NCBI GenBank assembly: GCA_944388935.1 | Contig: CALXKK010000006.1 | Coordinates: 1 to 64,000, forward strand | DNA length: 64,000 bases | Origin: an uncultured Clostridia bacterium | Lineage (GTDB): Bacteria; Bacillota; Clostridia; TANB77; CAG-508 | Reading direction: 5' to 3' | Shown: positions 3,001 through 56,466 of the stretch, piece after piece | How the letters are laid out: every line of letters begins with the position of its first letter | Position numbering within the stretch: the first letter of the stretch is position 1 | Position numbers and translations under genes: made by a program | Notes under the pieces: model-generated | The model's database searches: none | What the model was told of the DNA's origin: nothing | The model's input: the letters and a program-made list of their open reading frames with translations, nothing else

Positions 3001-4079
3001 ATTTTTATATTTCCTGAATTATATGTTGAATAATCTGATGGTTCATTTATAGAATTATCATCTAAATATTTCCCTAATGGCAAAGTATAATCATATCTAT
3101 GATAGATATTAGTAGCATATAGTTCTCTTCCATTAATTAAACCCTCATTACTTTGTGTCCAGTCGTTTATTCTATAATTCCATAATATAGGTGTGCATTC
3201 ATTTGTTATATCTTCACGTTCGATTGATTCAAATTCAGTTCTTTCTAATTTTAAATCTATATCAAAGGATATTTCCCCTTTTGGATATTCTACTCCTTTT
3301 AATCCTTTGGATGCATTATCATTAAATAGTTGAACTGCAAAACCATACCCATACATTCTTCCTGAAGTTTCACCTTCACCATAATCAACTGTTGTCTTAT
3401 TTAATAATTTATCCGTATTACTATCTAACTGCACATTATACTTTCCTGTTGCACTAACTATTACTTTCTGTGCTGTTGTCGTAGCTTTTTCTGTATTGTC
3501 ATTCCCATCTATATTAAAGTTAAAAGTAGGTTGTATCTCTGTTCCATTTCCTGCTCCATAAACTTGAAGAACAAATACTAGAGTTTGTTTTGCAGAAGAA
3601 GATGTTTCTGTATCAGCTACTGTATAACTTCCTGTAACTGTTCTACCATCTCCGCTAACTTTTCCATTCACCATCCATTGCATTGAGCTTAAATCCCATT
3701 TCACAAGGTTTGCTATATCTTCTGGCAAAGTAGCTTCTACATTTATTTTAGAACCTGCAATTGCTTTGCTGTCTTTTGAATTCATTGTTAAATCCACTGT
3801 CCATGTTACTTGGTCAAATGAACGAACAATATTGTTGTCTTCTGAACTATCGTTTCCAGGTTCATCATCATTATCAAATGGTCCTGTTCCTGTCTTTGTG
3901 CTAATTATTGCTGCTGAACTTACAACCGCATTTGATTCGTTTGCGTTTCTTATATTTTCTCCAATCCCATTTATTATTCCGTTCCTCATTTTAGGATTTA
4001 AACGAATTGCAGCCACGCACAAAAATGCTAATATTAAAAATACTAGCATTGGCCATTTTATTATTCTCCTTTTATCCAT
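1..4079 (-). CDS. Large multidomain surface adhesin (C-terminus outside window)
   Basis: The open frame continues past the left edge, so about 1359 N-terminal residues are visible. From the ATG ending at 4079 the product starts MDKRRIIKWP and has one hydrophobic segment at about residues 9-26, a signal peptide or membrane anchor. A long Asn/Thr/Ser-rich beta-type ectodomain follows. Near residues 880-930 there is a DUF11-like stretch (YKVTYENKTD). Near 1040-1105 there is an SdrD/Cna-B-like domain with an acidic loop (DNNYNGVIDDGE). Near 1160-1225 there is a second Cna-B domain (VTKVWNDNAD), then MucBP-like repeats (VHHYI.DG). These folds are typical of wall-anchored adhesins; the anchor itself is not in view. 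The ATG at 4079 has no well-placed ribosome site: the nearest AGGAG is 20 bases upstream inside a hairpin. The frame is open upstream through a CA tract, so translation probably starts at 4228 when the tract length permits. Confidence 0.85.
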   Translation of the reverse strand, partial: MDKRRIIKWPMLVFLILAFLCVAAIRLNPKMRNGIINGIGENIRNANESNAVVSSAAIISTKTGTGPFDNDDEPGNDSSEDNNIVRSFDQVTWTVDLTMNSKDSKAIAGSKINVEATLPEDIANLVKWDLSSMQWMVNGKVSGDGRTVTGSYTVADTETSSSAKQTLVFVLQVYGAGNGTEIQPTFNFNIDGNDNTEKATTTAQKVIVSATGKYNVQLDSNTDKLLNKTTVDYGEGETSGRMYGYGFAVQLFNDNASKGLKGVEYPKGEISFDIDLKLERTEFESIEREDITNECTPILWNYRINDWTQSNEGLINGRELYATNIYHRYDYTLPLGKYLDDNSINEPSDYSTYNSGNIKIVQEGSKLKVTINNYGFNGIFPYYRSSWPADNNKVKIYTDNIGTFSVGYMQIFVPDNEASTIEDRNYYLTISDNNMNISSTTGVNINNQMKTSDDSVSTQHFIYKPGSYSQYIELYSGNTRVVGTVESGYGRGDGRVNLEANFTLWSKFSMSATNDYNIQSADKFIKFDGNGIEPRYFENGSKYKIGSMAGNPTFRIWYVTKKDGTNWTSQTEMNNANIVDMDIYDNIENIPKDRICIGVYVETIDGDIPRSTGENNFIVIPLKIKNTATIGKTYGITQRTRMWIDKLDRDKYSIIHPENEMPTPTWDSGNKQYIKTEYDANGNMITGTHSGGNQWGNTVLVVGANIHGNIRAVDSSNANKVNYDLGKNENTVTYSVEPQLDANSNLSSQISNVTLKAEVTLAKGLEYVQGSSKKGESSYTEPEITENSDGSQKLVWYIYGVTSGQTITPITFDANIDNESSNGTQYEAKFVVSEVIGSDGVSKIGNSAISFRTSTTSINIINLESHRLYKEVETPIIEKNGEIKYKVTYENKTDATVPDFQLLDVLPYNGDGRGSSFGGSYTLKNINVVQTVNGSNQALDNLKIYSTNSDNVKGMDAKNTGIGTDSIWESISNGIVNKASKGIAIKGELAGKAKIELEITLATNGNNAKDVYANTAMAQVYSNSEQMETSRVYSRVVNRYIEGKVWLDNNYNGVIDDGEKYLNNVTLKLINTANSSQVATTTTNENGEYKFTDVAKGKYKVQIEVNGTYYDLTEKEVGTNVEINSKFNTNSAETDEITRLDSIQSPELIETNVNAGLTIKKINIPVTKVWNDNADVAKKRPDGIVAVIKNGTAEVGRQELNNGNSWTYTFSVPKYDDNLSEINYTVEEQVKNTDDLNCYSSSTTGSMSNGFTITNTILTGNVIVHHYILDDGDKTTTRVPSTDGGEVQDETIEGVKGDSYTTNPADNVSNYYELAETPDNASGTITEGTTEVNYYYRLKDTSVLVHHYIDGTETQVPSK

Positions 4080-4123: not shown

Positions 4124-4228
<105 letters not shown>

Positions 4229-5750: not shown

Positions 5751-7997
5751 TTATATTCTTTCATGAATTGTTCTGTGTATTACATCTAATTGTTGTTCTC
5801 TTGTTAATTTTATAAAGTTAACTGCATATCCAGAAACACGTACTGTTAATTGTGGGTATTTTTCTGGATGTTCCATTGCATCCTCTAGTAATGCTCTATC
5901 AAATACATTTACATTTATGTGATGTCCTGTTTGGATAAAATATCCTTGTAACATATTTACCATATTAGTAATTTGTGTTTCTTTGTCTTTTCCTAATGTT
6001 CCAGGTGTTATTGCAAATGTATAAGAAATACCGTCTTCTGAATATTCATATGGTAGTTTTGCAATAGAGTTCATAGAAGCTAAAGCTCCGTTAACATCTC
6101 TTCCGTGTAATGGGTTTGCTCCTGGTCCGAAAGGTTCTCCTGCTCTTCTTCCATCTGGAGTATTTCCTGTTGCTTTACCGTATACAACGTTTGATGTGAT
6201 TGTTAAGATTGATAATGTGTGTTTAGAATTTCTGTATGTTACGTGTTTTTGTAATTTTCTTAAGAATGTTTTTACTAAGTCTACTGCAATATTATCAACT
6301 CTGTCATCATCATTTCCGAATTTAGGAAAATCTCCTTCTACTTTATAATCTACAGCTAAACCGTCTTCATTTCTTATTACTTTTACTTTTGCATATTTTA
6401 TTGCAGAAAGTGAATCTGCAACTACAGATAAACCTGCAATACCACAAGCCATAGTTCTTACTATATCTGCATCTCTATCATGTAATGCCATTTCTAATGC
6501 TTCATAAGAATATTTGTCGTGCATATAATGAATTGCATTTAATGCTTTAATATATATTTTTGCTACATAATCCATCATTTGGTCAAATTTTTCCATAACT
6601 TCATCATAATCTAGGTATTCTGAAGTGATTGGCTCAAATAATGGTGTAACTTGTTTTCCTGTCATTTCATCTTTTCCACCATTAATTGCATATAATAGTG
6701 CTTTTGCTAGGTTTGCTCTTGCTCCGAAGAATTGCATTTGTTTTCCTATCTTCATAGCAGAAACACAACAAGCTATTCCGTAGTCATCTCCAAGTGTAAT
6801 TCTCATTAAATCATCATTTTCGTATTGAATTGATGATGTAGCTATAGAGATTTTTGCACAGTATCTCTTAAATGGTTCTGGTAAATTCTTTGACCATAAA
6901 ACTGTTAAGTTTGGTTCTGGAGCTGATCCTAAGTTTTCTAATGTGTGTAATACTCTGTATGAGTTCTTTGTAACTAAAGTTCTTCCGTCGATTCCCATAC
7001 CTCCGATGCTTTCTGTTACCCAAACTGGATCTCCACTGAATAATTCATTGTATTCTGGAGCTCTTAAGAATCTAACTAATCTTAATTTTATTATAAATTG
7101 GTCCATTAAAGATTGAGCTTCTTCCTCTGTTAAAACTCCGTTTTCTAAATCTCTTTCTATATATATGTCTAAGAATGTTGATGTTCTTCCTAAACTCATT
7201 GCTGCTCCGTTTTGGTCTTTTATTGCTGCTAAATATCCAAAATATAACCATTGTATTGCTTCTTTAGCATTAGAAGCAGGCTCTGATATATCGAATCCAT
7301 AAGATTCAGCCATTTCTTTTAATTGTTTTAATGCTTTTATTTGATCTGCAACTTCTTCTCTTTCACGAATAACAGACTCTGTAAATTCATCTGTATTTAA
7401 TGATGTGTCTAGTAATTTTTGTTTGTCTGCAATTAGTACATCCACACCATATAAAGCGACCCTTCTGTAGTCACCAATAATTCTTCCTCTTCCATATCCA
7501 TCTGGAAGTCCTGTAATTAAGTGTGAACTTCTTGCTGCTCTAATATCTTTTGTGTATACATCGAATACACCATCGTTATGTGTTTTTCTTAAAGTATGAT
7601 AAACATATTCTACTTCGTTATCAACTTTAAAACCATAACTTGCAGCTGATTTTTCTACAATTCTAATTCCTCCATTTGGCATTATTGCTCTTTTTAATGG
7701 AGCATCTGTTTGTAATCCTACAATTTCCTCTAAATCTTTATCTATATATCCTGGTGCATAGGCATTTATTCTTGAAGGTGTTTTGCAATCTGCATCTAAA
7801 ACTCCTCCATTATCTCTTTCTTTTTGATATAGGTCCATTACCTCGTCCCATAATTTTTTAGATTTTTCTGAGACTCCCTTTAAAAAGCTTTCATCTCCTT
7901 CATATGGAGTATAGTTTGCTTGAATGAATCCTCTTACATCTATTTCTTTGGTCCATTCTCCATCTTTTTTAAAGCCATCCCATTGTTTAAACTTCAT
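5751..7997 (-). CDS. pflB: Formate C-acetyltransferase (pyruvate formate-lyase)
   Basis: A glycyl radical enzyme that converts pyruvate and CoA to acetyl-CoA and formate in the cytoplasm under anaerobiosis. The 748 residues compare with about 760 in E. coli. The catalytic cysteine pair is at residues 410-411 ([10 protein letters not shown]). The glycyl radical loop near the C-terminus reads [10 protein letters not shown], with the radical glycine at residue 723. The start follows a strong GGGAGG site. It is divergent from the XRE regulator at 8211 across 213 bases holding a palindromic operator candidate, and co-directional with pflA. Confidence 0.98.
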
Positions 7998-8051
7998 GAT
8001 ATACCTCCCATAATATATATTAGCATACCGCTTTAATCATCATAACATAAG

Positions 8052-8066
8052 TGATAATAGTTATCA
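8052..8066. promoter_or_regulatory. Palindromic operator candidate between pflB and the XRE gene
   Basis: TGATAATAGTTATCA is a perfect 6+3+6 inverted repeat about 55 bases before the pflB start. The minus strand carries a possible -10 (TAATAT) between it and pflB. It could bind the adjacent XRE protein or a redox regulator; the sequence does not say which. Confidence 0.45.
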
Positions 8067-8210
8067 ATAAATTTTTGAAAATTTAAGAATATTTTATCGA
8101 ATTCATGGAACAATAATATCAATTAATGGCTTAATATTTACCAAATAGTTTCTTCTAGGCGTTTTATTTAAATGCTATATTGAACATACTAAAATATTGG
8201 GAGGAGCATT

Positions 8211-8540
8211 ATGGCTTTAGATTATTCTATTATTGGAGAAAGATTAAAACAAGCAAGACTTTCTAAAAATTTGACTCAAGAAAATTTAGCTGAGCAATTA
8301 GACGTTTCTGTTGCTTTCTTGAGCCGAGTAGAACGCGGACATTCACATCTTAATTTAAATAGACTAGCTCAAGTTTGTAAATTATTAGATGTTTCAGAAG
8401 GTTATATTTTATCTGGAAGTTCAGAAGATTCTAAATCATATCTTGATGAAGATTTTAAGAAAATATTAGATAAATGTTCTCCAGAAAAACAAAGACTTAT
8501 TTATAATATTGCTAAAACAATAGCCGAAGATGAGAATTAA
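8211..8540 (+). CDS. XRE-family helix-turn-helix regulator
   Basis: The product has 109 residues with an N-terminal HTH_3 domain at about residues 6-62 (IGERLKQARLSKNLTQENLAEQ, LSRVERGH) and a short helical C-terminal extension that may mediate dimerisation. A GGGAGGAG ribosome site precedes the ATG. It is transcribed divergently from pflB. Its stop codon abuts the stop of the convergent S4-domain gene (8540 and 8541). A role in pfl control is suggested only by position. The second XRE gene at 15448 has similar size and design but a clearly different sequence. Confidence 0.9.
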   Translation: MALDYSIIGERLKQARLSKNLTQENLAEQLDVSVAFLSRVERGHSHLNLNRLAQVCKLLDVSEGYILSGSSEDSKSYLDEDFKKILDKCSPEKQRLIYNIAKTIAEDEN

Positions 8541-8777
8541 TTATAATAATTCTATCATCTCCGGCATATTTTTTCCTAATGTTTTTGGTATTGCTATAAT
8601 TTTAAATTTTGATATTTTTTCTCCAAATTTTATTTCTACTATATCTCCAATTTTAACTTCGTAACTAGGCTTTACCTGTTTTCCATTTACAGATATTCTT
8701 CCCATATCAGCCATTTCGTTTGCTATTGTTCTTCTTTTTATAACTCTTGCTACTTTTAAAAATTTATCTATTCTCAT
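8541..8777 (-). CDS. rqcP: S4-domain RNA-binding protein, RqcP (YabO)-like
   Basis: The 78-residue protein is almost entirely one S4 domain (MRIDKFLKVARVIKRRTIANE, then GRISVNGKQVKPSYEVKIGD). It matches the family of small Firmicutes proteins that bind obstructed 50S subunits in ribosome quality control with RqcH. The length is typical. It is convergent with the XRE gene with no spacer. Paralogous S4 proteins of similar size exist, so the symbol rests on the N-terminal signature. Confidence 0.85.
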   Translation of the reverse strand: MRIDKFLKVARVIKRRTIANEMADMGRISVNGKQVKPSYEVKIGDIVEIKFGEKISKFKIIAIPKTLGKNMPEMIELL

Positions 8778-8928
8778 TTCTTATTCCTTTCCTTACTTTA
8801 TTCATTTTTTTACGAAACATCCAGATTAAATTAAAATCAAATTCTTCCAAAATTTAATTAAATACTGCTAAGATGTAATAGTTGTTACCTCTACTTGGTT
8901 TAACAAGGATTAAATTTAGTTATTTAAC

Positions 8929-9408
8929 CTATCTTCTTCTATAACATCCACAAAAAGTACCTGTATTATTTTGGTTTCCATTTTGATTATTAGAATCTAA
9001 TAACCTTACTCTTCCGTTTACAGTTAATGTATTATTGTCTCCATTATCATTTCCATTATTGCAATTATTATTACAGTTATTATTACCATTATTTCTACCA
9101 CTTCTTCCATTACGAGAACAACCACAATTGTTATCATCATCACAATTATTGCAATTGTTAACGCAATTTCTTATACTTCGTATAAATCTACAAATGTATT
9201 TACTAATTAATGCTGCTAAAAACGATATTATTGTATAAATTATAGCAAGTATAAAAAATAATGTACTAGAAAATATTACTGCAATTAATAGTAATATAGA
9301 AAATATAATTGAAGCAACAAGTACTGGGCAATCTAAAAGTTTTTCTAAAGCTATGGAAATTACTATTACTGCAAATGGTATTGCAAAAAATATTAATAAA
9401 ACATTCAT
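8929..9408 (-). CDS. Small membrane protein with Asn/Cys-rich cytoplasmic or exposed tail
   Basis: The 159 residues form two parts. Residues 1-75 contain two or three hydrophobic segments and resemble the DUF2651-type small membrane proteins of Bacillus by pattern (IPFAVIVISIAL, then FFILAIIYTIISFLAALISKYI). Residues 76-159 are low complexity: about nine Cys, many Asn and Asp, then a last segment ending TFCGCYRRR. The Cys/Asn tail could bind metal or be cross-linked, for instance in a spore layer. That is inference only and I recognise no function. It stands alone between the rqcP-like gene and truA. Confidence 0.7.
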   Translation of the reverse strand: MNVLLIFFAIPFAVIVISIALEKLLDCPVLVASIIFSILLLIAVIFSSTLFFILAIIYTIISFLAALISKYICRFIRSIRNCVNNCNNCDDDNNCGCSRNGRSGRNNGNNNCNNNCNNGNDNGDNNTLTVNGRVRLLDSNNQNGNQNNTGTFCGCYRRR

Positions 9409-9552
9409 AATAATTCAAATCCTTTCACGCTTTTATCGCGATATCTTTTCTTATCTTATATATATTATGAATGTATAATTTTTTTGTTACTAATTATAGT
9501 TAACTTAAATTTTCTTATAATTAGGCAACAAACAAAGTTCTGCTATCTATCA

Positions 9553-10293
9553 TTATTCATCATAGTTAACTTCCACTAAGTATAACCCATATGGTGGCAA
9601 GGTTTTTCCAGCATTCTGTCTGTTTTTTGATTCTATTATTCCAGTTATTTCTTCTGGTTTAATTTTTCCCAAACCTACTTCTACCAGTGTTCCAGATATT
9701 ATTCTTACCATATTATATAAAAATCCATTTCCTGTAAGCTCTATATATATTCTTTCTCCTTCTTTAGTTACTTTAGCTGAATATATAGTTCTTACACTGC
9801 TTTTACTACTTGTTCCACTTGCTTTAAATGCAGAAAAATCGTGTTCACCTTCAAAATATATTGCTGCTTCTTGCATTTTTTCTAGATTTAAAGGTTGTTT
9901 AATATTATATTCTAGGTTCCTATAAATTGCACTTCCTGTTTCGGAATTATTAATTACATATCTGTATGTTTTTTGTTTGCAATTATATCTGCTATGAAAT
10001 CTTTCTGGAACTTCTTCTGCCTTTTTTATGACTATGGATTTTTTTAGTCTGGAATTTATGGCTATTGCAAATTTTTCTATTGGAATATTAGAATTCGTTT
10101 TAAAATTAGCTACTTGTCCTAGCGCATGTACGCCTGCATCTGTTCTACCTGAGCCAATAATTTCTATATCTTCTTTAGTTATATCCGAAATTACCTTTTC
10201 TATATTTCCTTGAATATTTAATTTATTAGGTTGTTTTTGCCATCCGTTAAATTCTTTTCCATCATATTCAATTGTTAATTTTATATTTCTCAT
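9553..10293 (-). CDS. truA: tRNA pseudouridine(38-40) synthase
   Basis: It isomerises uridines 38-40 of tRNA anticodon arms. The catalytic aspartate motif [11 protein letters not shown] is present near residue 50, after the N-terminal [11 protein letters not shown] signature. The 246 residues are the usual length. Its ATG overlaps the recR stop by 4 bases (ATGA), which indicates translational coupling in the dnaX-ybaB-recR-truA order. Confidence 0.97.
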
Positions 10294-12874: not shown

Positions 12875-12896
12875 ATTATCACTTCCTAATTTAAGT

Positions 12897-13015
12897 TTAG
12901 CCTCTCTATGGGAAGCAATTACTCCACATAAATACACTACTTATTGCTGCTTCCTTCCGGACCTGACAAGGTTCATAGCTTTTTATTGGAGATTGCCTTC
13001 CATACAAAGGCTAAA
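12897..13015 (-). ncRNA. ffs: Signal recognition particle RNA (small bacterial type)
   Basis: On the minus strand the molecule contains the diagnostic SRP domain IV sequence (CAGGTCCGGAAGGAAGCAGC), and its ends pair (TTTAGCC with GGCTAAA, plus flanking bases). It lies just upstream of dnaX, a common Firmicutes position, and works with Ffh in co-translational targeting. Confidence 0.95.
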
Positions 13016-13081
13016 CATTGTAAACTGATTTATTTATTACATCGTTATTATATATGATTTATTGCATTTTATCAAGATATT

Positions 13082-27544: not shown

Positions 27545-30500
27545 ATGGAAAATATACTTCATGTTGGTTTAGACGTTGGGTCAACAACAGTAAAAATTGT
27601 AGTTATAGATTCTAATAAAAAAGAAATATATTCTGATTACACAAGACATTATTCAGATACAAAAAATACTGTTTGTAATGTCTTAGAAGATCTTGCAAAA
27701 AGATTTCCAAATAGCAAATTTACAATTGCTCTTACTGGTTCAGGAGCTATGTCTGCAGCTACATTCTTAGGGCTACCTTTTATACAAGAAGTTGTAGCTT
27801 GTAAAAGAGCTGTTGAGAAATTTATACCTCAAACAGATGTAGTAATTGAATTAGGTGGAGAAGATGCAAAAATAATCTACTTTGACCAATCCGTTGAGCA
27901 AAGAATGAATGGAACTTGTGCCGGAGGTACTGGTGCCTTTCTAGATCAAATGGCATCTTTATTAGATACGGATACAGCAGGACTTAACGAACTTGCCAAA
28001 GATTATACAACAATCTATCCAATAGCATCACGTTGTGGAGTTTTTGCTAAAACTGATGTACAACCTTTAATAAACGATGGTGCTGAAAAATCTGATATTG
28101 CTGCTTCAATTTTTCAAGCAGTAGTAAATCAAACTATTAGTGGTCTTGCTTGTGGTAGACCAATTAGGGGAACCGTAGCATTCCTAGGAGGACCTTTAAA
28201 TTATCTTCCAGAATTAAGAAAGAGATTTATAGAAACTCTTCACTTAAAACCAGATGAAATAGTTGTACCAAACGAAGCTCATTTATTAGTAGCTAAAGGT
28301 GCTTGTTTAGATGCTTTCGATAATGAGCCAATTACTGTGGATGAATTAAAAGAAAAAATACATAATTTAAGAATATCTCATGATAATACAACTAATCCTG
28401 TAGAGCCTCTTTTCAATTCTGATGAAGAATACCAAGAATTTAAGAAAAGACACGAAAAAGCTAAAGTTCATAGAAAAGATTTAAAAGACTTTAAAGGAGA
28501 TTGTTTTATAGGTATAGACGCAGGTTCTACTACAACAAAATTAGTTTTAATTGATAATGAAGATAATTTATTATATTCACTATACGATAGCAACGAAGGA
28601 AATCCTTTAAAAAGTGTTATGAAGATGTTAAAAGAACTTTATTCAGTACTACCAGAAAAAGCTAAAATAAGATTTAGTGGTGTTACTGGATATGGAGAAC
28701 AATTAATTCAAACAGCTTTAAATGTGGATTTAAATGAAATAGAAACAATTGCACATTATACAGCTGCAAAAAAATTCCAACCAGACGTTACTAGTATTGT
28801 AGATATTGGTGGTCAAGACATGAAATATATTAAACTAAAAAATGGTGCTATCGATAATATAATGCTTAACGAAGCTTGTTCTTCTGGATGTGGTTCTTTT
28901 ATAGAAACTTTTGCAAAAAGCTTAAACCTTTCTATAGAAAAATTTGTTGAGGAAGCAATACTTTCTAAAAGACCTGTAGACTTAGGTTCAAGATGTACAG
29001 TATTTATGAACTCAAAAATTAAACAAGCTCAAAAAGAAGGCTATAGTGTAGGAGATATCTCTGCAGGACTTTCTTATTCAGTTATTAAAAACGCTATTCA
29101 AAAAGTTATGAAAGTTAGGGATGTAAGCACTTTAGGTGACCACATTGTAGTACAAGGAGGAACTTTCTATAACGATGCTGTATTAAGAGCATTCGAGAAG
29201 ATTGTAGGTAAAGAGGTTGTAAGACCAGACATATCTGGATTGATGGGAGCTTATGGTGTTGCTATTTTAGCAAGACAACAATATGAATCTAATTTTGATA
29301 TGGAATATTATTCTACAATTGCTAAAGAGGAAGACATAGATAAATTAGAAATTAAAGTTACACATGCTCGTTGTAATAGATGTGAAAACCACTGCTTATT
29401 AACTATTAATACTTTTAATAATGGACATAGACATATATCTGGAAACCGTTGTGAAAAAGGTGCTGGAATAGTTACTGGACATAGTGATTTACCAAATCTA
29501 ATTAAATATAAACAAGAAAGACTATTTAATTACTATAAACCATTAGATGAGAAAGATGCACCTAGAGGTACAATTGGTATTCCTAGAGTTTTAAATATGT
29601 ATGAAGATTACCCATTCTGGTTTACATTCTTTACATCTTTAGGATTTAGGGTAATAGTTTCTGAAAAAAGTACTAGAAAAACTTACGAAAAGGGAATGGA
29701 ATCTATGCCATCAGAATCAGTTTGCTATCCAGCAAAACTATCTCATGGTCATGTAATAAGTTTAATACAAAATGGAATTAAAACAATATTCTATCCTTGT
29801 ATGCCTTATTCAAGAAAAGAATATGAAAAAGCAGACAATCATTACAATTGTCCAATAGTAATTTCATATTCTGAGGTATTAAAAAATAATGTAGAAGAAC
29901 TAAAAGACCCAAGTATTAAATTCCTAAATCCATTCTTACCATTTGATGCTAAGAATTTAACAAAGAGAATTTTGGAATTGAATGAATTTAAAGAATATAA
30001 CTTTAATAAGAAAGAATTAATGGAAGCAGCTAAAAAAGCTGAAGATGAATATCAACATTTTAAACAAGATATTTTCCAAAAAGGTCAAGAAGCTCTTGAA
30101 TATATGGATAAACATCATACAAAAGGAATTGTACTTGCAGGTAGACCTTATCATTCTGACCCAGAAATAAATCATGGTATAGATACATTAATCACAAGTC
30201 TTGGTTTATGTGTCTTAACAGAAGATAGTGTTGCAAATCAGACTGAAGCAAAACGTCCTTTAAGAGTTGTTGACCAATGGGTATTCCACGCTAGACTATA
30301 TGCTGCCGCTGAATTTGTAGGACATCACGATAATCTAGAATTAATACAATTAAATTCATTTGGTTGTGGTGTAGATGCTGTAACAACAGACCAAGTAGAA
30401 GAAATACTATCTAGTTACGGAAAAATGTATACATTAATAAAAATAGACGAAGTAAATAACTTAGGCGCTGTTAGAATCCGTATTCGTTCTTTACTAGCTA

Positions 30501-31906
30501 GTATGAAAAAAAGAGAAGCATTAAAAAAGGATGAATCAGATGATGGCAACTACGGAATAAATAAAAAGATATTTACAAAGGAAATGAAAAAAGATTATAC
30601 AATTCTTTGTCCTCAAATGGCTCCAATACATTTCGAATTATTGGAAACAGCAATGAGAACAGCAGGATATAACTTAGTATTATTAAGAGAATTTACTCAA
30701 AAAACTGTTGAAACAGGATTAAAATATGTTAATAATGATGCTTGTTATCCATCAATATTAGTTACTGGACAAATGATAGAAGCTTTGGAATCTGGTAAAT
30801 ATGATCCAAACAAAACTGCTTTAATAATGTCACAAACTGGTGGTGGATGTAGAGCAACAAATTACATAGGATTTATAAGGAAAGCCCTTAAGGATGCAGG
30901 ATATCCAAACATTCCAGTTATCTCATTTAATGTAGTTGGAATGGAAAAAGTACCAGGATTTAAATTAACTATTCCTTTATTAGAAAAATTATTAAGAGGT
31001 GTTCTATATGGTGATTTATTACAAAAAATGCTAACCAAAAATAGAGCATATGAAAAAAATAAAGGAGAAACTCAAGCTTTATTCGATAAATGGATGAATA
31101 AATGCAAAGAAATACTTAAAAATGGAAATAGTAAAGAATTTAAACAAAGTATCTATGATATAGTTGATGACTTTGAGAAAATAGAATTAGATACATCTGT
31201 TGTAAAACCTAAAGTTGGAATTGTTGGAGAAGTTTTAATAAAATATCATCCTTTTGGAAACAATTTCGTTGCAGACTTATTAGAAAAAGAAGGAGCAGAA
31301 GTTGTACTTCCAGATTTTATGGGATTCATTAAATTTATGGCAACACATAAAGTTACATTTAATAGTTTACTAAAAACAAATCCAATTGTTTCAAAAATAT
31401 CAAAAGCAGCTATTAGCTTAATTGATATATTAGAAAAAGATTCTAAAGAAGCATTAGCTAAATCTAAGAAAGGATATTTACCACCATGTGATATTTGGCA
31501 CCTAGAAGATACTGTTAAAAATATTTTATCTATAGGAAATCAAACTGGTGAAGGTTGGTTCTTAACAGCTGAAATGATTGAATATATAGAACATGGAATT
31601 CCAAACATTATATGTGTTCAACCATTTGCTTGCCTACCTAACCATGTTGTTGGAAAAGGTGTTATTAAAACAATAAGAGAACAATATCCTAATGCAAACA
31701 TTTCTCCAGTTGATTATGACCCAGGAGCTAGTGAGTCTAACCAAACAAACAGAATTAAATTATTAATGACTGTTGCAAAAGATAATTTGAAGAGAGAAAT
31801 GCAAGAAAAGAAAGCAGTAGAAAATGAAAACAAACAAACACAGGAACCAAATAAAACAGCAAAAGATTCTGAAAAGGTTCATGAAAATGTTAATATAAAT
31901 AATTAA
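27545..31906 (+). CDS. 2-hydroxyacyl-CoA dehydratase activase, long fused form
   Basis: The 1453-residue protein combines two BadF/BcrA/HgdC-type ASKHA ATPase domains (GLDVGSTTVKIV at residue 7, GIDAGSTTTKLV near 325) with cluster-binding cysteines in GTCAGGTGAF, SRCGVFAKTD, ACSSGCGSF and SRCTVFMNSK. A cysteine-rich segment (HARCNRCENHC) follows, then a DUF2229 region and a C-terminal HgdB-like dehydratase domain (CPYSR-type CMPYSRKEYEK). Such giant proteins are common in anaerobic Firmicutes; they use ATP to drive low-potential electron transfer, but the substrate is unknown. GAAAGGAG precedes the ATG. The C-terminal 40 residues are low-complexity Lys/Glu/Asn. It is monocistronic. Confidence 0.93.
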   Translation: MENILHVGLDVGSTTVKIVVIDSNKKEIYSDYTRHYSDTKNTVCNVLEDLAKRFPNSKFTIALTGSGAMSAATFLGLPFIQEVVACKRAVEKFIPQTDVVIELGGEDAKIIYFDQSVEQRMNGTCAGGTGAFLDQMASLLDTDTAGLNELAKDYTTIYPIASRCGVFAKTDVQPLINDGAEKSDIAASIFQAVVNQTISGLACGRPIRGTVAFLGGPLNYLPELRKRFIETLHLKPDEIVVPNEAHLLVAKGACLDAFDNEPITVDELKEKIHNLRISHDNTTNPVEPLFNSDEEYQEFKKRHEKAKVHRKDLKDFKGDCFIGIDAGSTTTKLVLIDNEDNLLYSLYDSNEGNPLKSVMKMLKELYSVLPEKAKIRFSGVTGYGEQLIQTALNVDLNEIETIAHYTAAKKFQPDVTSIVDIGGQDMKYIKLKNGAIDNIMLNEACSSGCGSFIETFAKSLNLSIEKFVEEAILSKRPVDLGSRCTVFMNSKIKQAQKEGYSVGDISAGLSYSVIKNAIQKVMKVRDVSTLGDHIVVQGGTFYNDAVLRAFEKIVGKEVVRPDISGLMGAYGVAILARQQYESNFDMEYYSTIAKEEDIDKLEIKVTHARCNRCENHCLLTINTFNNGHRHISGNRCEKGAGIVTGHSDLPNLIKYKQERLFNYYKPLDEKDAPRGTIGIPRVLNMYEDYPFWFTFFTSLGFRVIVSEKSTRKTYEKGMESMPSESVCYPAKLSHGHVISLIQNGIKTIFYPCMPYSRKEYEKADNHYNCPIVISYSEVLKNNVEELKDPSIKFLNPFLPFDAKNLTKRILELNEFKEYNFNKKELMEAAKKAEDEYQHFKQDIFQKGQEALEYMDKHHTKGIVLAGRPYHSDPEINHGIDTLITSLGLCVLTEDSVANQTEAKRPLRVVDQWVFHARLYAAAEFVGHHDNLELIQLNSFGCGVDAVTTDQVEEILSSYGKMYTLIKIDEVNNLGAVRIRIRSLLASMKKREALKKDESDDGNYGINKKIFTKEMKKDYTILCPQMAPIHFELLETAMRTAGYNLVLLREFTQKTVETGLKYVNNDACYPSILVTGQMIEALESGKYDPNKTALIMSQTGGGCRATNYIGFIRKALKDAGYPNIPVISFNVVGMEKVPGFKLTIPLLEKLLRGVLYGDLLQKMLTKNRAYEKNKGETQALFDKWMNKCKEILKNGNSKEFKQSIYDIVDDFEKIELDTSVVKPKVGIVGEVLIKYHPFGNNFVADLLEKEGAEVVLPDFMGFIKFMATHKVTFNSLLKTNPIVSKISKAAISLIDILEKDSKEALAKSKKGYLPPCDIWHLEDTVKNILSIGNQTGEGWFLTAEMIEYIEHGIPNIICVQPFACLPNHVVGKGVIKTIREQYPNANISPVDYDPGASESNQTNRIKLLMTVAKDNLKREMQEKKAVENENKQTQEPNKTAKDSEKVHENVNINN

Positions 31907-31932: not shown

Positions 31933-31979
31933 AAAAGTGCATTTTAAATATTAATAAAATAATATTTAAATGCACTTTT
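31933..31979 (+). terminator. Terminator of the activase gene
   Basis: A long stem (AAAAGTGCATTTtAAATATT with its complement) ending in TTTTATTT, starting 27 bases after the stop. Confidence 0.85.
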
Positions 31980-34900
31980 ATTTAATTAATTTATTATTAT
32001 TATTTTATTTATTATTTAATTTTTATTATTTTATTTATTATTTATTTTATTTTTAATTTATTATTTTTTTAAATTTTATTTATAAAAAAATAATTGATAC
32101 TATTAAACAAAAATAGTACCAATTATCTATAAAGCTAAAATTACTCTTGTTCATACTAATAAAAATAATATTTAAACCTATTAAATATTACTATTTAACT
32201 AAGCCTAATACCACCAATATTAATAATTCACTCGAATATGAAAACACCCTTACTAGCTATATTCTTCCCTAAGGGAATATTAATAACCATTCAGATATCA
32301 ACATACTCTTATCTTGAATATAATACCTATAATTTAACCCTTAAAATAAGAGCTTACATACAAATATTATACTCTTAATGCCAGCATAATATAACCAAAT
32401 AATTAGCTATATCACACCAAACATTTCGAATATAAAGAACCATATATAAAATAGCCCTTTACACTCTTCGATTAAATAATATTAACCTTATACTATTAAT
32501 ATGTACAATTTAATTTTTTTTATACATTTTTTATAATATTATTTATTTAAATTAAATAATTTTAATTTGTTTTTTTATAATTACTTTTTATATTATTATT
32601 TGTTTATTTTTATTATTTAATATTTAAATTTAATTAATAATTTTTAATTAATTTATTTTTTATACTAATATTTAAATAATTATTTATTTTAATTTAATAA
32701 ATATAATTATTTAAATTTAATTTTTATTTATTTAAAAATATTATTTTATTATTTAATATATTTTTATTAATTATTAAATTAATTTCTTTCTATTTTTTTT
32801 TTATAAATAATATTAATTTATTTATTATTTATTTTTTATTTTTTATATTAAATAATAATATTCTTATTTTTTAATTAGATCTTAATCCTTTACTTCCTAA
32901 AGCTTACAAATATTATAATTTTATATTTAATATTTATTTTTAAATTATGTTTTAATAAATAATTATATTTTATTTATTATTTAAATATTTAATTATTTAT
33001 ATAATATTTTATTGAATATCTATATTTAATTAAAATTTAATTATTTTATCTTATGCTTAATAATTATATTTATATTTTAATTTTTATTTAATAAATCAAA
33101 AATATAATATTTAATTTATTTTTAATTAATAATTTTATTTATTGTTTTTAATTTAAATTTTTTTAAAATTTATTTTCTTGTTATTTTTTTAATTTTAAAA
33201 TTATTTATTTATATTTAATTATTTATTATTATTTAATTAAATATTTTTTAAATCATTTTTTGTAAGAATTTTTTATTTAATATATTTACCCATTAATTAT
33301 TAAATTAATTTATTTCCCTTATTTTTTATATTTAATATTAACTTATTTTTATTTTTTAAATTAAATATATTATTATTTAATTAGCTGCTAATCCTTTACT
33401 TTCCAACGCTTTTAAATTATTATAATTTACATTAAACATTTATTTTTAAATTATGTTTTAATAAATAATTATTTTTTATTAATTTTTTTATAATTTTTAA
33501 ATTTATTTATTTTATTATATTACTATTTAATTATTTAATTATTAATATAATTATTTTTAATTAAATATTTTTTATTTAATTGGAATTTAATTGTTTTATC
33601 TTATGCTTAATAATTATATTTATAATTTAATTTTTATTTATTAAATCAAAAATATAATATTTAATTTATTTTTAATTAATCATTTTATTTATTATTTTTA
33701 ATTTATATTTTTTTAACTTATTTACTTATTATTTTTTATAATTATAAAATTATTTATTATTATATAATTAAATATTTTTTTAATCATTTTTTGTAGGAAT
33801 TTTTTATTTAATATATTTACCTATTAATTATCAAATTAATTTATTTCCATTATTTTTTTATTTAAATTAATTTTATTTATTTAATCAGATGCTAATCTTT
33901 TACTTCCCAATGCTTATAGATTATCATAATTTATATTAACCATTTATTTTTTATTAATTTATTTATAATTGTTAAATTCATTTATTTTATTATATTACTA
34001 TTTAATTATTAATATAATATTTTTATTTAATTGGAATATAATTATTTTATCTTATACTTTATAATTATATTTATAATTTAATTTTTATTTATTAAATTAA
34101 AATATAATATTTAATTTATTTTTAATTAATAATTTTATTTATTATCTTTAACTTAATTATTTTTTAATTAAATTACTTATTATTTTTATATGTTTTTTTA
34201 TAATTATTTTTAATAATAAAATAATTTATTTATATTTAATTATTAATTATTATTTTATATTATTTAATTAACTATTTTCTCTAGCTATTCCTAAATTATA
34301 TTTTATAAATTTTTTTATTTTAATATTAATCATTAAATATTTTATTTGCGTAAGTAAATTTTTTTATAAAAAATATAATAATTATTATTTAAATTTATTT
34401 AATTGATTTTTTATTATTTATAAATAAATTATTTAATATTTTTTCTAATAAATTTTTTATTATTATTTGCTTATTAATTAATTTTTCTATTTTATATAAA
34501 TTAAATTATTTATATAAAATTTTCTATTAGATCTTTTTTATTATTTTTTAATTTTTAATTTAATATAAATTTCACTTATTTATATTAAATATTTTTTTAT
34601 TTTTAATTTAATAAATATAATTATTTAAATTTAATTTTTTTATTAATTATTAAATTAATTTATTTCTATTTTTTTTTATATTTAATATTAACTTATTTTT
34701 TTATAAAATTAAATTGATTTGTTTTTTTATTTTTATATTAAATAAAATATTATTATTTAATTAGCTGCTAATCCTTTATTTCCTGACGCTCATAAATTTT
34801 CATATTTTATACTAAATATTTATTTTTAAATTATGTTTTAATAAATACTATTTTTTATTAGTTTTATTTATAATTGTTAAATTTATTTATTTAATTATTT

Positions 34901-36698
34901 TATATTAAATTATTTCTATAATATTTTTAATTAAATATTTTTTATTTAATTAGAATTTATTTTTATCTGATAATTAATAATTATATTTATAATTTAATTT
35001 TTATTTATTAAAAAAAATATAATATTTATTTTTTAAAATTAATAATTTTATTTATCATTTTTAAATATTTTTTTAATATATTTATTTGTTGTTTTTATAT
35101 GTTTTTTAAAACTATATATATTTAAAATATTATTTTTTTATAATTTAATAATTTATTAGTATTTTATATTCTTTAATTAAATTTTTTCCTAATTATTCCT
35201 AAATTTTATTTTATAGAATTTTTTTATTTTAATATTAATCATTAAATATTTAATTTGCGTAAGTAAATTTTTTTATATAAAAAGTATAAAAATTATTTAA
35301 TATTTATATCTATTTAATTTTTTAATATTTATTTCTTATTAATTTATTTTATATAAATTAAATTATTTATATAAAATTTTCTATTGGATCTTTTTAATTA
35401 TTTTTTAAATTTTTAATTTAATATAAATTTTACTTATTTATATTAAATACTTTTTTAATTTATTTACTTATTATTTTTATAATTATTTATTTGTTTTTTA
35501 TTATTTAATTTAATAAAAATATTTATTTGAATTTAATAATTATTTTTTTAAAATAGTAGGTTATAATTTTATTATTTAATATTTTTTTAATTATTAAATT
35601 AAACTTTTTATATAATTAATATTAATCTATTTATTATTTAGTTTTTATTTTTTATTTTTAATAAAAAGATTATAATTATTCAATTAAGTTTAAGCCTTTG
35701 CTTCCCAAGGCTTGTAGATTTTTATAATTTTATATTTAATATTTGTTTTTAAATTATGTTTTAATAGATAATTATTATTTATTATTTATAAATTAATTAT
35801 TTAATATTTTTATTTATTTAATTAATAATTATATTTTTATTATTAATTAAATTATTTTATTAATTTATTTATTTAATTGAGATTTAATTATTTTATACTA
35901 AATAATTATTTTTATATTTTAATTTATATTTATTAAATTCAAAATATAATATTTAATTTATTATTTTTAAATATTTTTTTATTTGTTTAATTATTATTTT
36001 ATATATTTTTTAAAACTATTTATAATTAATATATTATTTATATTTAATAATTTATTAATAAATATTTTTTGTACATTATTAAATTTATTTATTATTTTTA
36101 TATTTAATATTAATTAATTTTTTATTATTTATTTTTCTATTTATATTTTTATTATTATTTTAAATAAAAATATTATTATTATTTAATTATCGTCTAATTC
36201 CTTAGTTCCCAATACTTACAGCTTCTTATAATTTTATATTTAATAATAATTTTTTATATAATTTTTTAAAATAATTATTTATTATTTTCTAAATAATATA
36301 TTTAATTAATAATTATTTTTTATTATTAATTAAATTAATTTATTAATTTTTTTATTTTATTTTTTAATTAATTATTTTATTTATTTAATTATTTTTATAA
36401 ATTATTTTTTTTATATTAAAATATTTTTAATTATTTCTATTTTTATTTTTAAAAATATCTACTAAATAATTTTACTTAAAAATCTCTATTAAATAAAATA
36501 TTTTAAAAAGTATATTTTTCTAATATTTCTTTTCAAATTCTCTTTTAAGAGATTTTTGCCTTTATTCGATAAATTATACCTTTTTATAATTATCTTTCTT
36601 TATATTTGATTCTCGTAAGTCATTTTTGAACCTTTTTTCTTTTGTTTCTAAAAACAATATTAACGCAAAAAAAAGAAATGCCTATTCAGCATTTCCTT
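31980..36698. other. 4.7-kb AT-extreme gene desert
   Basis: No frame with a ribosome site or recognisable product exists on either strand. Most lines hold only 1-5 G or C per 60 bases. From about 32150 to 32510 the plus strand is noticeably C-rich and G-poor, with a TTCCCTAAGGGAA palindrome near 32267. A 13-base hairpin (AATTGATACTATT and near complement) lies at 32090-32123. The rest, 32.5-36.3 kb, is a degenerate tandem repeat array described separately. 36240-36698 is featureless AT-rich sequence leading to the tRNA-Ser genes. Confidence 0.9.
32871..36215 (-). repeat. Array of six degenerate repeat units with a conserved GC-containing core
   Basis: Cores lie at 32871-32903, 33377-33409, 33881-33913, 34757-34789, 35676-35711 and 36183-36215. 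Start-to-start spacing is 506, 504, 876, 919 and 507 bases. On the minus strand each core reads as about ten codons resembling A-L-G-S-K-G-L-x-x-N then stop. Flanks are also shared: TAAATTATGTTTTAATA after cores 1, 2, 4 and 5, and TTATCTTATGCTTAATAATT in several units. The two long units share extra segments, including TTTGCGTAAGTAAATTTTTT at about 34345 and 35255. These are diverged tandem copies. Confidence 0.85.
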
Positions 36699-36791
36699 TG
36701 GCGGAGAATGAGGGATTTGAACCCTCGCGGCCCCTTACGAAACCCTAACGGTTTAGCAAACCGTCCCCTTCAACCACTTGGGTAATTCTCC
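36699..36791 (-). tRNA. tRNA-Ser (anticodon GCT)
   Basis: A class II tRNA with a long variable arm on the minus strand: acceptor GGAGAAT/ATTCTCC, anticodon stem ACGGT/ACCGT with loop TTGCTAA, T-arm GAGGGTTCGAATCCCTC. The CCA is encoded at 36701-36699. Confidence 0.97.
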
Positions 36792-36813: not shown

Positions 36814-36905
<92 letters not shown>

Positions 36906-37653: not shown

Positions 37654-38511
37654 TTATTTCTTAATTAACTCTAAAATTCTCTCTAAATCATCATTATTCT
37701 TGTATTCTATTATAATCTTTCCTTTTCTTTTTCCTACATCTAACTTAACTTTAGAACCGAAGAAATCTCTAAATGATGTCTCTATATCTCTATAAATAGG
37801 CTCATATTTCCTATCTCTGTTAGTTTTTGTCTTGTTTCTAGCCATCTTCTTTTCAGCTTCGTTAACACTATCTCCAGATTCTAAAATATATTTAGCCATA
37901 GCATATTGCTTATCCTTGTTAGGTACTGCTAATATTGCCTTACAGTGCCCCTCAGATAGCTTTCCATCTAATGCCATTTGAATTACTCTTTCGTCAAGAT
38001 TAAGTATTCTTACTGTATTCGCTATACTACTTCTAGCTTTACCAAGCTTATCTGCTACTTGCTGTTGAGTTAAGCCATACTCATCCATTAAGCTCTTTAT
38101 ACCTAAAGCTTTTTCAATTGGATTTAAGTCTTCCCTTTGTAAATTTTCTATTAATGATATTTCTTTATTTTTTCTATCATCATTTTCTCTTACTATTACT
38201 GGAATCTCAGTTAAACCAGCCTTTTTACAAGCTCTCCATCTTCTTTCTCCAGCTACAATTTCATAGTAACCGTCTTTTGGAGTAACTATTATAGGCTGTA
38301 ATAAACCATATTCCTTTATAGAATTAGCTAATTCCTCTAAGCTTTCTTCATCAAATTTCTTTCTAGCTTGGCTTTTATTAGGCTCAATGTCAATAAGCTT
38401 TAACTTCTGTATTCTTTCGCCTTCTTGGATTTCTTCTTCCTTTTTTTCTTCCTCTATAGTGCTTGCAAATAGAGCATCTAGTCCTTTTCCTAGTCCTGTT
38501 TTTTTAGCCAT
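37654..38511 (-). CDS. parB: Chromosome-partitioning protein ParB (Spo0J)
   Basis: A CTP-dependent DNA clamp of 285 residues that loads at parS sites. Visible are the N-terminal IDIEPNKSQARKKFDEES, the CTP-binding GERRWRACKKAGL, and the helix-turn-helix (YGLTQQQVADKLGKARSSIAN). It lies 37 bases downstream of parA. I saw no consensus parS in the window by eye. Confidence 0.97.
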   Translation of the reverse strand: MAKKTGLGKGLDALFASTIEEEKKEEEIQEGERIQKLKLIDIEPNKSQARKKFDEESLEELANSIKEYGLLQPIIVTPKDGYYEIVAGERRWRACKKAGLTEIPVIVRENDDRKNKEISLIENLQREDLNPIEKALGIKSLMDEYGLTQQQVADKLGKARSSIANTVRILNLDERVIQMALDGKLSEGHCKAILAVPNKDKQYAMAKYILESGDSVNEAEKKMARNKTKTNRDRKYEPIYRDIETSFRDFFGSKVKLDVGKRKGKIIIEYKNNDDLERILELIKK

Positions 38512-38548
38512 TTATATCATCATCCTTTCTTTTATTTATATATATCAA

Positions 38549-39313
38549 TTATTCTGTAGTCCTTTTTATAAACTCTCTAGCTAGCTTGTCGTAAGCTTTT
38601 GCTCCTTTAGATCTAGGATCGTATGTTATAATTGGCATACCATAACTTGGAGCCTCACTAAGTTTAACATTCCTAGGTATTACTGTCTTAAACACCTTAT
38701 TTTCAAAATATTTCTTTACTTCTCTTACAACTTGATTTGCTAAATTTGTCCTTAAATCATACATTGTAAGAATAGCTCCTTCTATATATATTTCTTTATT
38801 TAAATGTTTTTTTACTATATTAATTGTATTCATCAATTGTCCTAAGCCTTCTAGCGCAAAGTATTCACACTGTACAGGTATTAATACACTATCTGATGCT
38901 GTAAAAGCATTTAAAGTAATTAATCCTAATGATGGCGGACAATCTATGAAAATATAATCATAATTATCTCTTATTTTTTCTAATTGCTCTTTTAATCTTT
39001 GCTCTCTTGAAACCATTGATACAAGCTGAACTTCGGCTCCTGCTAAATTAATATTTGAAGGGCAAATGTCTAATTTTTTCGTGGTAGTTGTTTGAATAAC
39101 CTCGTTCAAATCAACCTCATTTACTAATACATCATAAGTTGATAATTCACAATCTTTATCAACACCAACTGCACTAGTTGCATTTCCCTGTGGATCCGCA
39201 TCAATTATTAATACTTTTTTACCTCTATTAGCTAAACATGCACTTAAATTAACTGTTGTAGTTGTTTTTCCAACTCCACCTTTTTGATTTGCTACTGATA
39301 ATATTTTTCCCAA
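38549..39313 (-). CDS. parA: ParA-family ATPase (Soj)
   Basis: The 254 residues have the deviant Walker A KGGVGKTTTTVNLSA, the DADPQGNAT motif and FIDCPPSLGLIT. It is the first gene of the parA-parB-DUF4446 unit, in the left arm about 7 kb from oriC. It governs origin segregation and, in Bacillus, DnaA activity and sporulation entry. Confidence 0.97.
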   Translation of the reverse strand: MGKILSVANQKGGVGKTTTTVNLSACLANRGKKVLIIDADPQGNATSAVGVDKDCELSTYDVLVNEVDLNEVIQTTTTKKLDICPSNINLAGAEVQLVSMVSREQRLKEQLEKIRDNYDYIFIDCPPSLGLITLNAFTASDSVLIPVQCEYFALEGLGQLMNTINIVKKHLNKEIYIEGAILTMYDLRTNLANQVVREVKKYFENKVFKTVIPRNVKLSEAPSYGMPIITYDPRSKGAKAYDKLAREFIKRTTE

Positions 39314-39511
39314 AATTATTCCCCCTCGCTTAATATTATAAATATTAATTTTTATTATGATATTCGTTACAAATAGCTAAATATCAAGCATTTGAGCTGT
39401 TCATAAAAAATCTGCATTTAAATATTAGAATAAAAAAATTAACACATTAATCATATAAAAATATGATTAATATGTCAATGAAATTTGTTAATATTTTTAT
39501 AATTTTTTTAG

Positions 39512-43741: not shown

Positions 43742-43857
43742 TATTTTACCTCTTTTCTTTATTTATTTAATTAATTAATTTATTATTTTTTTATTTTATT
43801 TTTTATTTATTTTAATATTATTTTTTTATTAATTATTTATTTAATTAATATTTAAAA

Positions 43858-43939
43858 AAGTCAAAGCTTGGAAATATTTAAGATTTTGGAATTTAAAATT
43901 CCAAATTATTTTCTTATTTATTACCCAGAACTTTGACTT
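43858..43939 (-). terminator. Structured terminator downstream of jag
   Basis: Outer arms AAGTCAAAG/CTTTGACTT enclose an inner palindrome TTTGGAATTTAAAATTCCAAA (43888-43906 region). On the minus strand the outer arm is followed by TTTTTTAAAT. It lies between jag and mnmE; sequence from 43745 to 43857 is AT-only filler. Confidence 0.65.
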
Positions 43940-46385: not shown

Positions 46386-46870
46386 TATTTTCTTGCATAT
46401 TCTTTTATTTCCATTTTTCAACTAAAAATTCAAAATTCAACAACTTATCAACATGGTGGATAAAAAACTTATTCACACCCAAAAAGGTCAATTATTGTCG
46501 TAAAAAATAAAAATTTGTTCTGTATTGGAAGATTACGGTATTACAGGCTTTATAAAATTTGTAATATTTTGTAATAAAATGTAATTTTTATATTTTTTAT
46601 ACACTTATCCACAAAATTATCCACATTATACACAGATTTATTTAAGTTTTTTGTCCATTATTATTGACTAAGTAATTTTAATTATATATAATGTAAAAAC
46701 AATAGGGAATAGTGATATTTTTTATTTTTTTTTGAAAAGTTTGACACTTGTATTACAGTATTTTTACATACTTTTCAAAGTTATCAACAGCTGTGGATAC
46801 CGTTGTGGATAACCAAAAAAAATCCCGATATCCTTTATTCCCTTATACTTTTTAGGAAGGATTGAAAGAA
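46386..46870. other. Chromosomal replication origin (oriC), dnaA-upstream part
   Basis: The gap between divergent rpmH and dnaA holds at least eight DnaA-box matches: TTATCAACA (46445), TTATTCACA (46469), TTATCCACA (46605 and 46617), TTATACACA (46626), TTATCAACA (46781), and the inverted TGTGGATAC (46792) and TGTGGATAA (46804). Long AT stretches between 46500 and 46600 and at 46640-46740 can serve as unwinding elements. The arrangement matches bipartite Firmicutes origins, with the second part after dnaA. Confidence 0.93.
46741..46770 (+). promoter_or_regulatory. Candidate dnaA promoter
   Basis: TTGACA (46741-46746) with TACATA (46765-46770) after 18 bases, immediately before three DnaA boxes, so DnaA could autorepress it. 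The -10 is imperfect. Confidence 0.5.
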
Positions 46871-55769: not shown

Positions 55770-56349
55770 TAAAATAATAAATATATTTGGAAATAATGGT
55801 TCAGGAAAAAGTATTATATCTATTTTATTAGCAAATATTTTAGCAGAAAATAATTTAAAAGTATTAATTATAGATTCTAATTTTTATGATTATAGTATTT
55901 ATAAAATATTTAATAAAAAACCAGAAAATAAAATAATTAAAATAGAAAATATTTATTTAATAAATAAATATTTAAAAAAAGAAATAAATAAATTTAATAT
56001 AATTATTTTTGATAATCCAAATATTAATTTTTTAAAAACAAAAGAATTATTAAAAAATTCTACAAATATATTTTTGTCAGAATGTAATTTACTAGGAATA
56101 AAAAAATTAAATAATTTAATTAATAAAAATACAAAAGAAATAAAAAAAGAAAAAATAAATATTATTTTTAATAAATATAATTTAAATTCTATAGATTATG
56201 AATTATTAAATAAAGCATTTAAAAATATTAGAATACTAGGGAAAATCAATTATACAAATAAAATAGAAAAAATAATAAATACAGGAAAAATAATTAAAAT
56301 TAATTCCATAAAAAAAGATTTATTAAAAATAATAAAAAAAATAAATTAA
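55765..56349 (+). CDS. MinD/ParA-like P-loop ATPase with non-standard start
   Basis: An open frame of 195 codons begins INKIINIFGNNGSGKSIISILL, with Walker A GNNGSGKS at once, then VLIIDSNFYDYSIYK, FNIIIFDNPNINFL and FLSECNLLGIKKLNNL, the order of TadZ/CpaE/MinD-like ATPases. There is no ATG, GTG or TTG before the Walker A. The only placed candidate is ATT at 55765, 9 bases after GGAG and overlapping the VirB4 stop (ATTAA). So start selection is inferred. It is the most A/T-rich gene in the window, with long Asn/Lys/Ile runs. Confidence 0.7.
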   Translation: MNKIINIFGNNGSGKSIISILLANILAENNLKVLIIDSNFYDYSIYKIFNKKPENKIIKIENIYLINKYLKKEINKFNIIIFDNPNINFLKTKELLKNSTNIFLSECNLLGIKKLNNLINKNTKEIKKEKINIIFNKYNLNSIDYELLNKAFKNIRILGKINYTNKIEKIINTGKIIKINSIKKDLLKIIKKIN

Positions 56350-56466
56350 TAAAAAAAATAATTAATTAAAAAATAATTAATAAAAAAAAATTAATTTAAA
56401 ATAAATTAATAAAAAATTTAAAAAATAAAAAATAATTTTTTATTTTTTTATGGAAAGGAAAAAAAT
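56350..56466. other. AT-only spacer with a hairpin
   Basis: 117 bases with almost no G or C before the ribosome site of the next gene. AAAAAATAAAAAAT facing TTTTTTATTTTTTT can form a weak A/T stem that may act as a partial terminator. Confidence 0.4.

Follow-up and report, generated by a model that had tools for sequence, protein, structure and literature searches.

The A+T-rich control region of insect mitochondria, which holds the replication origin, is repeat-bearing, lies beside tRNA genes and evolves fast at a fixed place, and in these respects it resembles the bacterial locus reported here. Regional centromeres of Plasmodium, found by synteny, are 2–3 kb long, over 96% A+T, non-coding and internally repetitive (PMC3316556). 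AT-biased mutation in bacteria is established (PMC2936535), and PMC8040213 reports thousands of RNA candidates predicted from the human microbiome. Here we analyze a window of 64,000 bases, positions 1–64,000 of contig C6 (93,666 bases), from an uncultured Clostridia bacterium whose own genome (G000) is a 1.63-Mb draft of 41 contigs. An initial annotation had flagged positions 31980–36698 of this window as a desert of A+T. We find there an array that is probably a neutral spacer turning over by tandem duplication, beside a separate, probably functional RNA gene; the RNA is strongly structured, seems to be undescribed, and is the more valuable content of the stretch.

G+C content is 7.9% over 31980–36698 and 5.85% over the desert core (32501–36500; 94% A+T), compared with 22%–33% in most kilobases of the window, so that the long stretch nearly without G or C described in the initial annotation is real. 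It is not uniform: positions 32201–32500, at 24%–31% G+C, are part of the structured RNA gene. The desert proper, supported by G+C content, self-similarity against controls and a scan for open reading frames (ORFs), is a degenerate tandem array at about 32528–36500; an A/T-only run of 120 bases (31976–32095) lies on the other side of the RNA, between it and a convergent activase gene. No ATG-started ORF of at least 40 amino acids occurs in 32521–36650, in keeping with the non-coding character that had been claimed. Self-similarity analysis upholds the tandem array: the desert has 54 self-similar segments (one and none in two second-order Markov shuffles) and 35 diagonals of at least 30 bits (none in ten third-order Markov controls). 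Offsets cluster mainly at about 450–550 and about 900 bases, and the copies are 77%–97% alike. Six of them carry a G+C-richer island, at 32864–32982 (0.82 identity to 33370–33488), 33364–33522 (0.84 to 34744–34902), 33877–33951 (0.87 to 33373–33447) and, by self-similarity, 34744–34902, 35688–35783 and 36165–36245. The distance of about 10 kb from oriC given by the initial annotation is right, as a DnaA-box cluster lies at 46445–46804 and dnaA at 46862. Within the desert we found no DnaA box (at most one mismatch) and no parS, and a search against Rfam returned tRNAs and chance matches only. The stretch matches none of 50,697 phage records, and the exact 19-base island pattern is in no viral contig. 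Apparent homology of the desert to contig C3 of the same genome was rejected, since the best DNA matches are to an AT-rich coding gene (by eye) and reflect composition only. Retention of G and C in the repeat copies was likewise discarded as a test of selection, because the segments had been picked by a score that rewards shared G and C.

The composition of the desert is that of sites under little constraint. In 21 genes of the window, third positions that are fourfold degenerate have 5.6% G+C. The minus strand of the desert, which is the leading strand there, has base frequencies of A.585, T.357, C.021 and G.037; fourfold sites in leading-strand genes left of oriC have A.589, T.340, C.036 and G.035, and those in lagging-strand genes A.457 and T.500. 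Desert composition thus equals that of same-strand fourfold sites, so the strand asymmetry too is the neutral one, and the desert is composed as almost unselected sites of this genome are. A nucleoid or SMC landmark or a target of xenogeneic silencing, both proposed in the initial annotation, is accordingly not needed as a cause. The length and place of the desert still call for explanation; its composition does not.

Counted from either side, an AT desert occupies the corresponding place in 11 of 14 genomes of the genus (G000, G001, G003, G004, G005, G006, G008, G009, G011, G012 and G013; that of G005 is only about 100 bases, at a contig end). The same-genus genome G007 is contiguous through the place without a desert, none was seen in G010, and no parB was obtained from G002. 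Downstream of parB, contigs stop after 212–2094 bases in ten genus genomes (G001, G003, G005, G006 and G008–G013; in G010 a further parB copy, on its contig C24, is contiguous), several of them within DNA of 0%–5% G+C, and the desert accounts for the tendency of draft genomes of this family to break beside parB. From the RNA side, 130–4178 bases at 2.0%–8.7% G+C can be followed in eight genus genomes, and in eight species A makes up 56%–67% of the RNA strand of the desert. In the independent genome G009 a single contig runs from tRNA-Ser (1–93) through the desert to the RNA (2819–3253) and the activase gene beyond, which makes misassembly unlikely. AT tails or runs adjoin the same tRNA-Ser pair, parB or the activase gene in other genera as well (L055, L058, L060, L070, L075, L076, L083, L085, L087, L088 and L092), while the contigs of G014 and G021 continue through the place without a desert.

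The sequence at this place is not kept. Among 15 desert pieces from 14 genomes, pairwise comparison revealed no shared sequence above Markov controls, with five exceptions: the sisters G001 and G004; the two contig ends of G006; simple AT arrays in G003, G005, G008 and G011; a tRNA-adjacent stretch in G008 and G012; and a 10-base match between G003 and G020. Array offsets differ by species (about 170–210 in G013 and about 415–463 in G009, against about 450–550 in G000), as do the G+C-richer islands of G009 and G013 compared with those of G000. The comparison with close relatives that the initial annotation had proposed thus separates a conserved position from an unconserved repeat, its suggestion of a decayed gene family finds no support across species, and identical sequence elsewhere, which it had named, for an unrelated organism, as a sign of contamination or misassembly, was found neither in the phage records nor, these exceptions aside, in the deserts of the genus.

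No second desert was found in the draft genome. All 140 start positions of A/T-only runs of 100 bases in G000 fall within C6:31976–56451, 24.5 kb around oriC: 102 in the desert region (31976–36436), three at 43758–43859 and 35 at 56318–56451. None of 81 contig ends (of 82, the end of C41 being left out) has less than 12% G+C in its last 200 bases, and hidden deserts at contig breaks of G000 are therefore unlikely. Short A/T-only runs are common in the family, with at least one such 100-mer in 51 of 117 genomes, and the rarity claimed in the initial annotation therefore holds within the genome and not for short runs in the family. A locus was available for 30 of these 51 genomes, and in 16 of the 30 a homologue of a window gene, or else the tRNA-Ser pair, lies within 1.5 kb, although the window is ~4% of the genome. 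Higher read coverage near the origin may bias which AT runs assemble, and this enrichment is not decisive. Some A/T-only runs longer than 100 bases lie inside open frames (L090, 663 codons; L080, 660; L071 and L089, 655 each). In L009 a long gene on C3 (about 7886–9747), SbcC-like by eye, drops to 3% G+C over 250 bases.

The RNA gene lies on the minus strand at 32091–32495 (about 400 nt, ends approximate), where it was recognized from its folding energy and compensatory changes. Positions 32080–32520 fold at −133.4 kcal/mol compared with −78.7 for shuffles (standard deviation 4.8; z −11.4), and a distant homologue, L258, folds with z −6.0. In an alignment of 11 genus genomes 132 pairs are supported, 44 of them with compensatory changes; a closing helix and a terminator-like hairpin are included, and in the hairpin the sequence changes and the pairing is kept. 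Across 38 family genomes (alignment A5, which holds 38 of 41 matches, with L178, L232 and L242 left out) 69 of 89 pairs show changes on both sides. Double-changed cells number 399, against 99.6 in shuffled and 55–99 in slid controls, and 96.5% of cells are paired, against 35%–47% when slid, for a structure derived from the same alignment. The A5 consensus is without the closing helix and terminator, both of which are supported in the genus alignment only. Covariation thus exceeds both kinds of control; the structure is under selection and widely conserved. The hairpin (32084–32125, minus strand) resembles an intrinsic terminator with a T tail, its stem being kept with compensatory changes in 11 genomes (columns 434–468); our terminator scan did not list it. 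A putative promoter, ATGTAT and CATATT separated by 17–18 nt, lies at 32498–32527 on the minus strand. Our consensus promoter scan did not list it either, and it is suggested by conservation, which in the genus sets in sharply about 40 bases before the first helix: the block 40–21 bases upstream of TATAAGG is 0.75–0.95 identical to G000, against 0.30–0.75 further up, and a family-wide alignment brings TTGWAT-like and TATAAT-like boxes into register upstream of the RNA (by eye).

Searches of known RNA families gave no counterpart. Against Rfam 15 the window stretch returned tRNA-related and chance matches only (E up to 5), and the RNA of four relatives two chance-level matches only (E up to 10). 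The best matches to three housekeeping RNAs lie elsewhere: RNase P RNA at C29:5603–5931 (below the cut-off), signal recognition particle RNA at 12888–13026 of the window (minus strand, 58.9 bits, just under the Rfam cut-off) and tmRNA at C4:89963–90317 (over the cut-off). OLE, ROOL and GOLLD, which we take to be included in Rfam 15, and the other Rfam families gave no covariance-model match to the RNA. Among the papers that our literature searches listed, none deals with a comparable desert or with this RNA, which may sit unnamed among the human-microbiome candidates of PMC8040213.

Matches to the RNA at E < 1e-45 occur in 11 of 14 genus genomes, G000 included; those in G002 and G012 are short and weak, and G003 has none. 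A covariance model built from the central 170 nt finds the RNA, one copy each, in 42 of the 59 family genomes covered, representing 32 of 39 genera; the filters were strict, and the lack of a match in the other 17 does not prove that they lack the RNA. Elsewhere in the order, 37 genomes of other families yielded two weak matches, which belong to a single genus, against 15 of 20 for the home family. One exact 28-base pattern of the RNA has no match in viral contigs, and blastn found no match in plasmids. Of 30 loci, 27 have the 3′ part of gyrB on the 3′ side of the RNA; the exceptions are the window (activase gene), L242 (where the contig stops) and L238 (no match). In most family loci the neighbor of the RNA is gyrB, with no kilobase array alongside. 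G007 has the order dnaA, dnaN, recF, a short ORF, gyrB and then the RNA on the opposite strand, where the gene names follow the order in which homologous genes stand in the window and the similarity to gyrB seen in family loci. The RNA is beside gyrB in G005 too (L227), is not beside the activase gene in G010, and stands at the edge of the desert beside the activase gene in G000, G001, G004, G006, G008, G009, G011 and G013, a pattern suggesting that it moved there within the genus. In G007 a second, weak match to the RNA model (L220, 13161–13258, minus strand, 22.5 bits) adjoins the main one. Deeply covarying, present in most genera of the family, mostly beside gyrB and with no Rfam counterpart, the RNA matters more than the desert.

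One border of the desert is the activase gene (27545–31906, plus strand; BadF/BcrAD and DUF2229 domains by Pfam), and the other is tRNA-Ser(gct) (36699–36791, minus strand). A second tRNA-Ser (tga; 36814–36905, minus strand) follows in tandem, and beyond it DUF4446, parB (37654–38511, minus strand, by Pfam) and parA, the parAB stretch being 37654–39313. The terminator scan placed a hairpin directly after tRNA-Ser(gct) (36671–36699, minus strand), so tRNA transcription should stop short of the desert. The window has no parS 16-mer within three mismatches and the whole assembly none within one, so that the desert is not a ParB–parS centromere with a parS in or beside it. Canonical parS (at most one mismatch) was not found in 56 of 59 family genomes, against a control in which 34 of 37 loci around parB of other records have one; parB itself was found in 36 of 38 relatives searched, and parAB is kept in the family. 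A ParB search of other contigs had seven close family members (L093–L099) among the matches listed. G000 and G009 have ParB proteins that are 88% identical but islands that differ, and the islands are therefore not shared ParB sites. The absence of parS leaves room for an unusual partition site, and nothing ties such a site to the desert. The parA promoter lies within a 40-base, near-perfect inverted repeat (39427–39466, minus strand) whose arms covary in other genera (by eye); this repeat is a candidate operator or drifted partition site, and only one exact copy of its arm is in the window. Elsewhere in the window, positions 4134–4172 are a perfect TG dinucleotide repeat of 19.5 units, possibly a phase-variable tract.

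In the explanation that we favor, the desert would be an unconstrained spacer between the tandem tRNA-Ser genes and the small RNA gene. Local tandem duplications of about 0.2–0.55 kb, arising and expanding by slippage or unequal recombination, would build a species-specific, satellite-like array on whose sequence no selection acts and which presumably has no function. Strongly AT-biased mutation, for which the fourfold sites argue, would drive the copies to an equilibrium of about 5%–6% G+C, and the few G+C-richer islands may be what has decayed least of the unit duplicated last. The gap near oriC would be old and tolerated, its content turning over within the genus. What the data show directly is the base composition with its asymmetry between strands, the repeats, and a place that is kept while its sequence is lost. 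The RNA, whose structure is directly supported, is best read as a separate, functional, stand-alone gene. Its action is probably in trans, possibly as a scaffold for a ribonucleoprotein, since it has an apparent promoter and terminator of its own and a convergent neighbor and is the leader of no gene. Three points weigh against a neutral spacer. Other useless DNA should decay likewise, yet we found no further kilobase desert in G000; a compact 1.6-Mb genome would not be expected to retain 4 kb of useless DNA under deletion bias; and the A/T-only loci of the family concentrate near oriC, which is the strongest objection. The place and persistence of the desert are mildly surprising.

A functional interpretation, which we hold to be unlikely, is that the desert is a sequence-independent AT tract near oriC whose composition, length and place are selected, serving as a domain boundary, a landmark for nucleoid proteins or SMC, or easily melted DNA, much as regional AT-rich centromeres do. 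Its uniqueness in G000, the fact that 11 of 14 genus genomes keep it alongside parAB and tRNA-Ser, the 16 of 30 A/T-only loci near oriC genes, and a parS missing from 56 of 59 family genomes though parB is in 36 of 38 relatives would all suit such a tract. Against it, G014, G021 and the same-genus G007 are contiguous without a desert, the composition is that expected without selection, and ParB has stayed 88% identical between G000 and G009 while the islands differ. It is a long shot that this parS-less, parAB-keeping family handles its origin by AT tracts recognized through composition, with the RNA associated with gyrB and the desert as part of the machinery. If it did, the tracts would correspond, in a bacterium, to regional AT-rich centromeres, and the stay of the RNA in the origin region, and at the desert edge in most of the genus, would be explained.

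The repeats themselves could be remnants of tandemly repeated genes or of a mobile element, which we doubt. Copies are 77%–97% alike and some minus-strand islands read ...ALGSKGLAAN-stop (by eye), but in other copies stops break the frame (by eye), no ATG-started ORF reaches 40 amino acids, the arrays of G009 and G013 carry different islands, and neither the viral contigs (for the 19-base pattern) nor the phage records (for the stretch) give a match. That the array is one long transcript, or the precursor or leader of the structured RNA, is most improbable. The RNA does stand at the downstream end of the array, and the same strand asymmetry recurs in eight species (A 56%–67% on the RNA strand); this asymmetry is nevertheless that of the leading strand in general, in most family loci the RNA has gyrB as its neighbor and no kilobase array, the putative promoter is where conservation sets in, and a terminator follows tRNA-Ser. 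The initial annotation had offered the desert as a possible source of RNA, which is correct insofar as an RNA gene lies inside the stretch; the array is not enriched in promoter-like sites (68 found, 85.5 expected). There is very little chance that the desert is an assembly artefact or a collapsed or misjoined repeat: the genome is a draft of 41 contigs and the contigs of relatives often stop here, so that the true length may differ, but G009 has the same layout on one contig and both contig ends of G006 bear the same repeat.

Compared with the systems described above, the desert shares with Plasmodium centromeres a very high A+T content, non-coding and repeat-bearing sequence, and a syntenic position. 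It differs in that centromere function there was shown by plasmid segregation (PMC3316556), whereas the desert is known from sequence and lies in a bacterial host with ParAB. The insect mitochondrial control region differs in holding the origin itself, as oriC with its DnaA boxes is here 10 kb from the desert. The AT-biased mutation of PMC2936535 predicts that unselected bacterial DNA will drift to AT, and the passages of that study considered here treat neither deserts nor satellites. For compact bacterial chromosomes, the desert would add a clear example of satellites turning over on the kilobase scale, at a fixed site near oriC and with a composition set by mutation alone. For the RNA the nearest likeness is to OLE, ROOL and GOLLD (PMC12286853), which are likewise stand-alone, long, ornate and covarying RNAs of largely unknown function; the RNA described here is distinguished from them by its length of about 400 nt, its near confinement to one family and its place beside gyrB.

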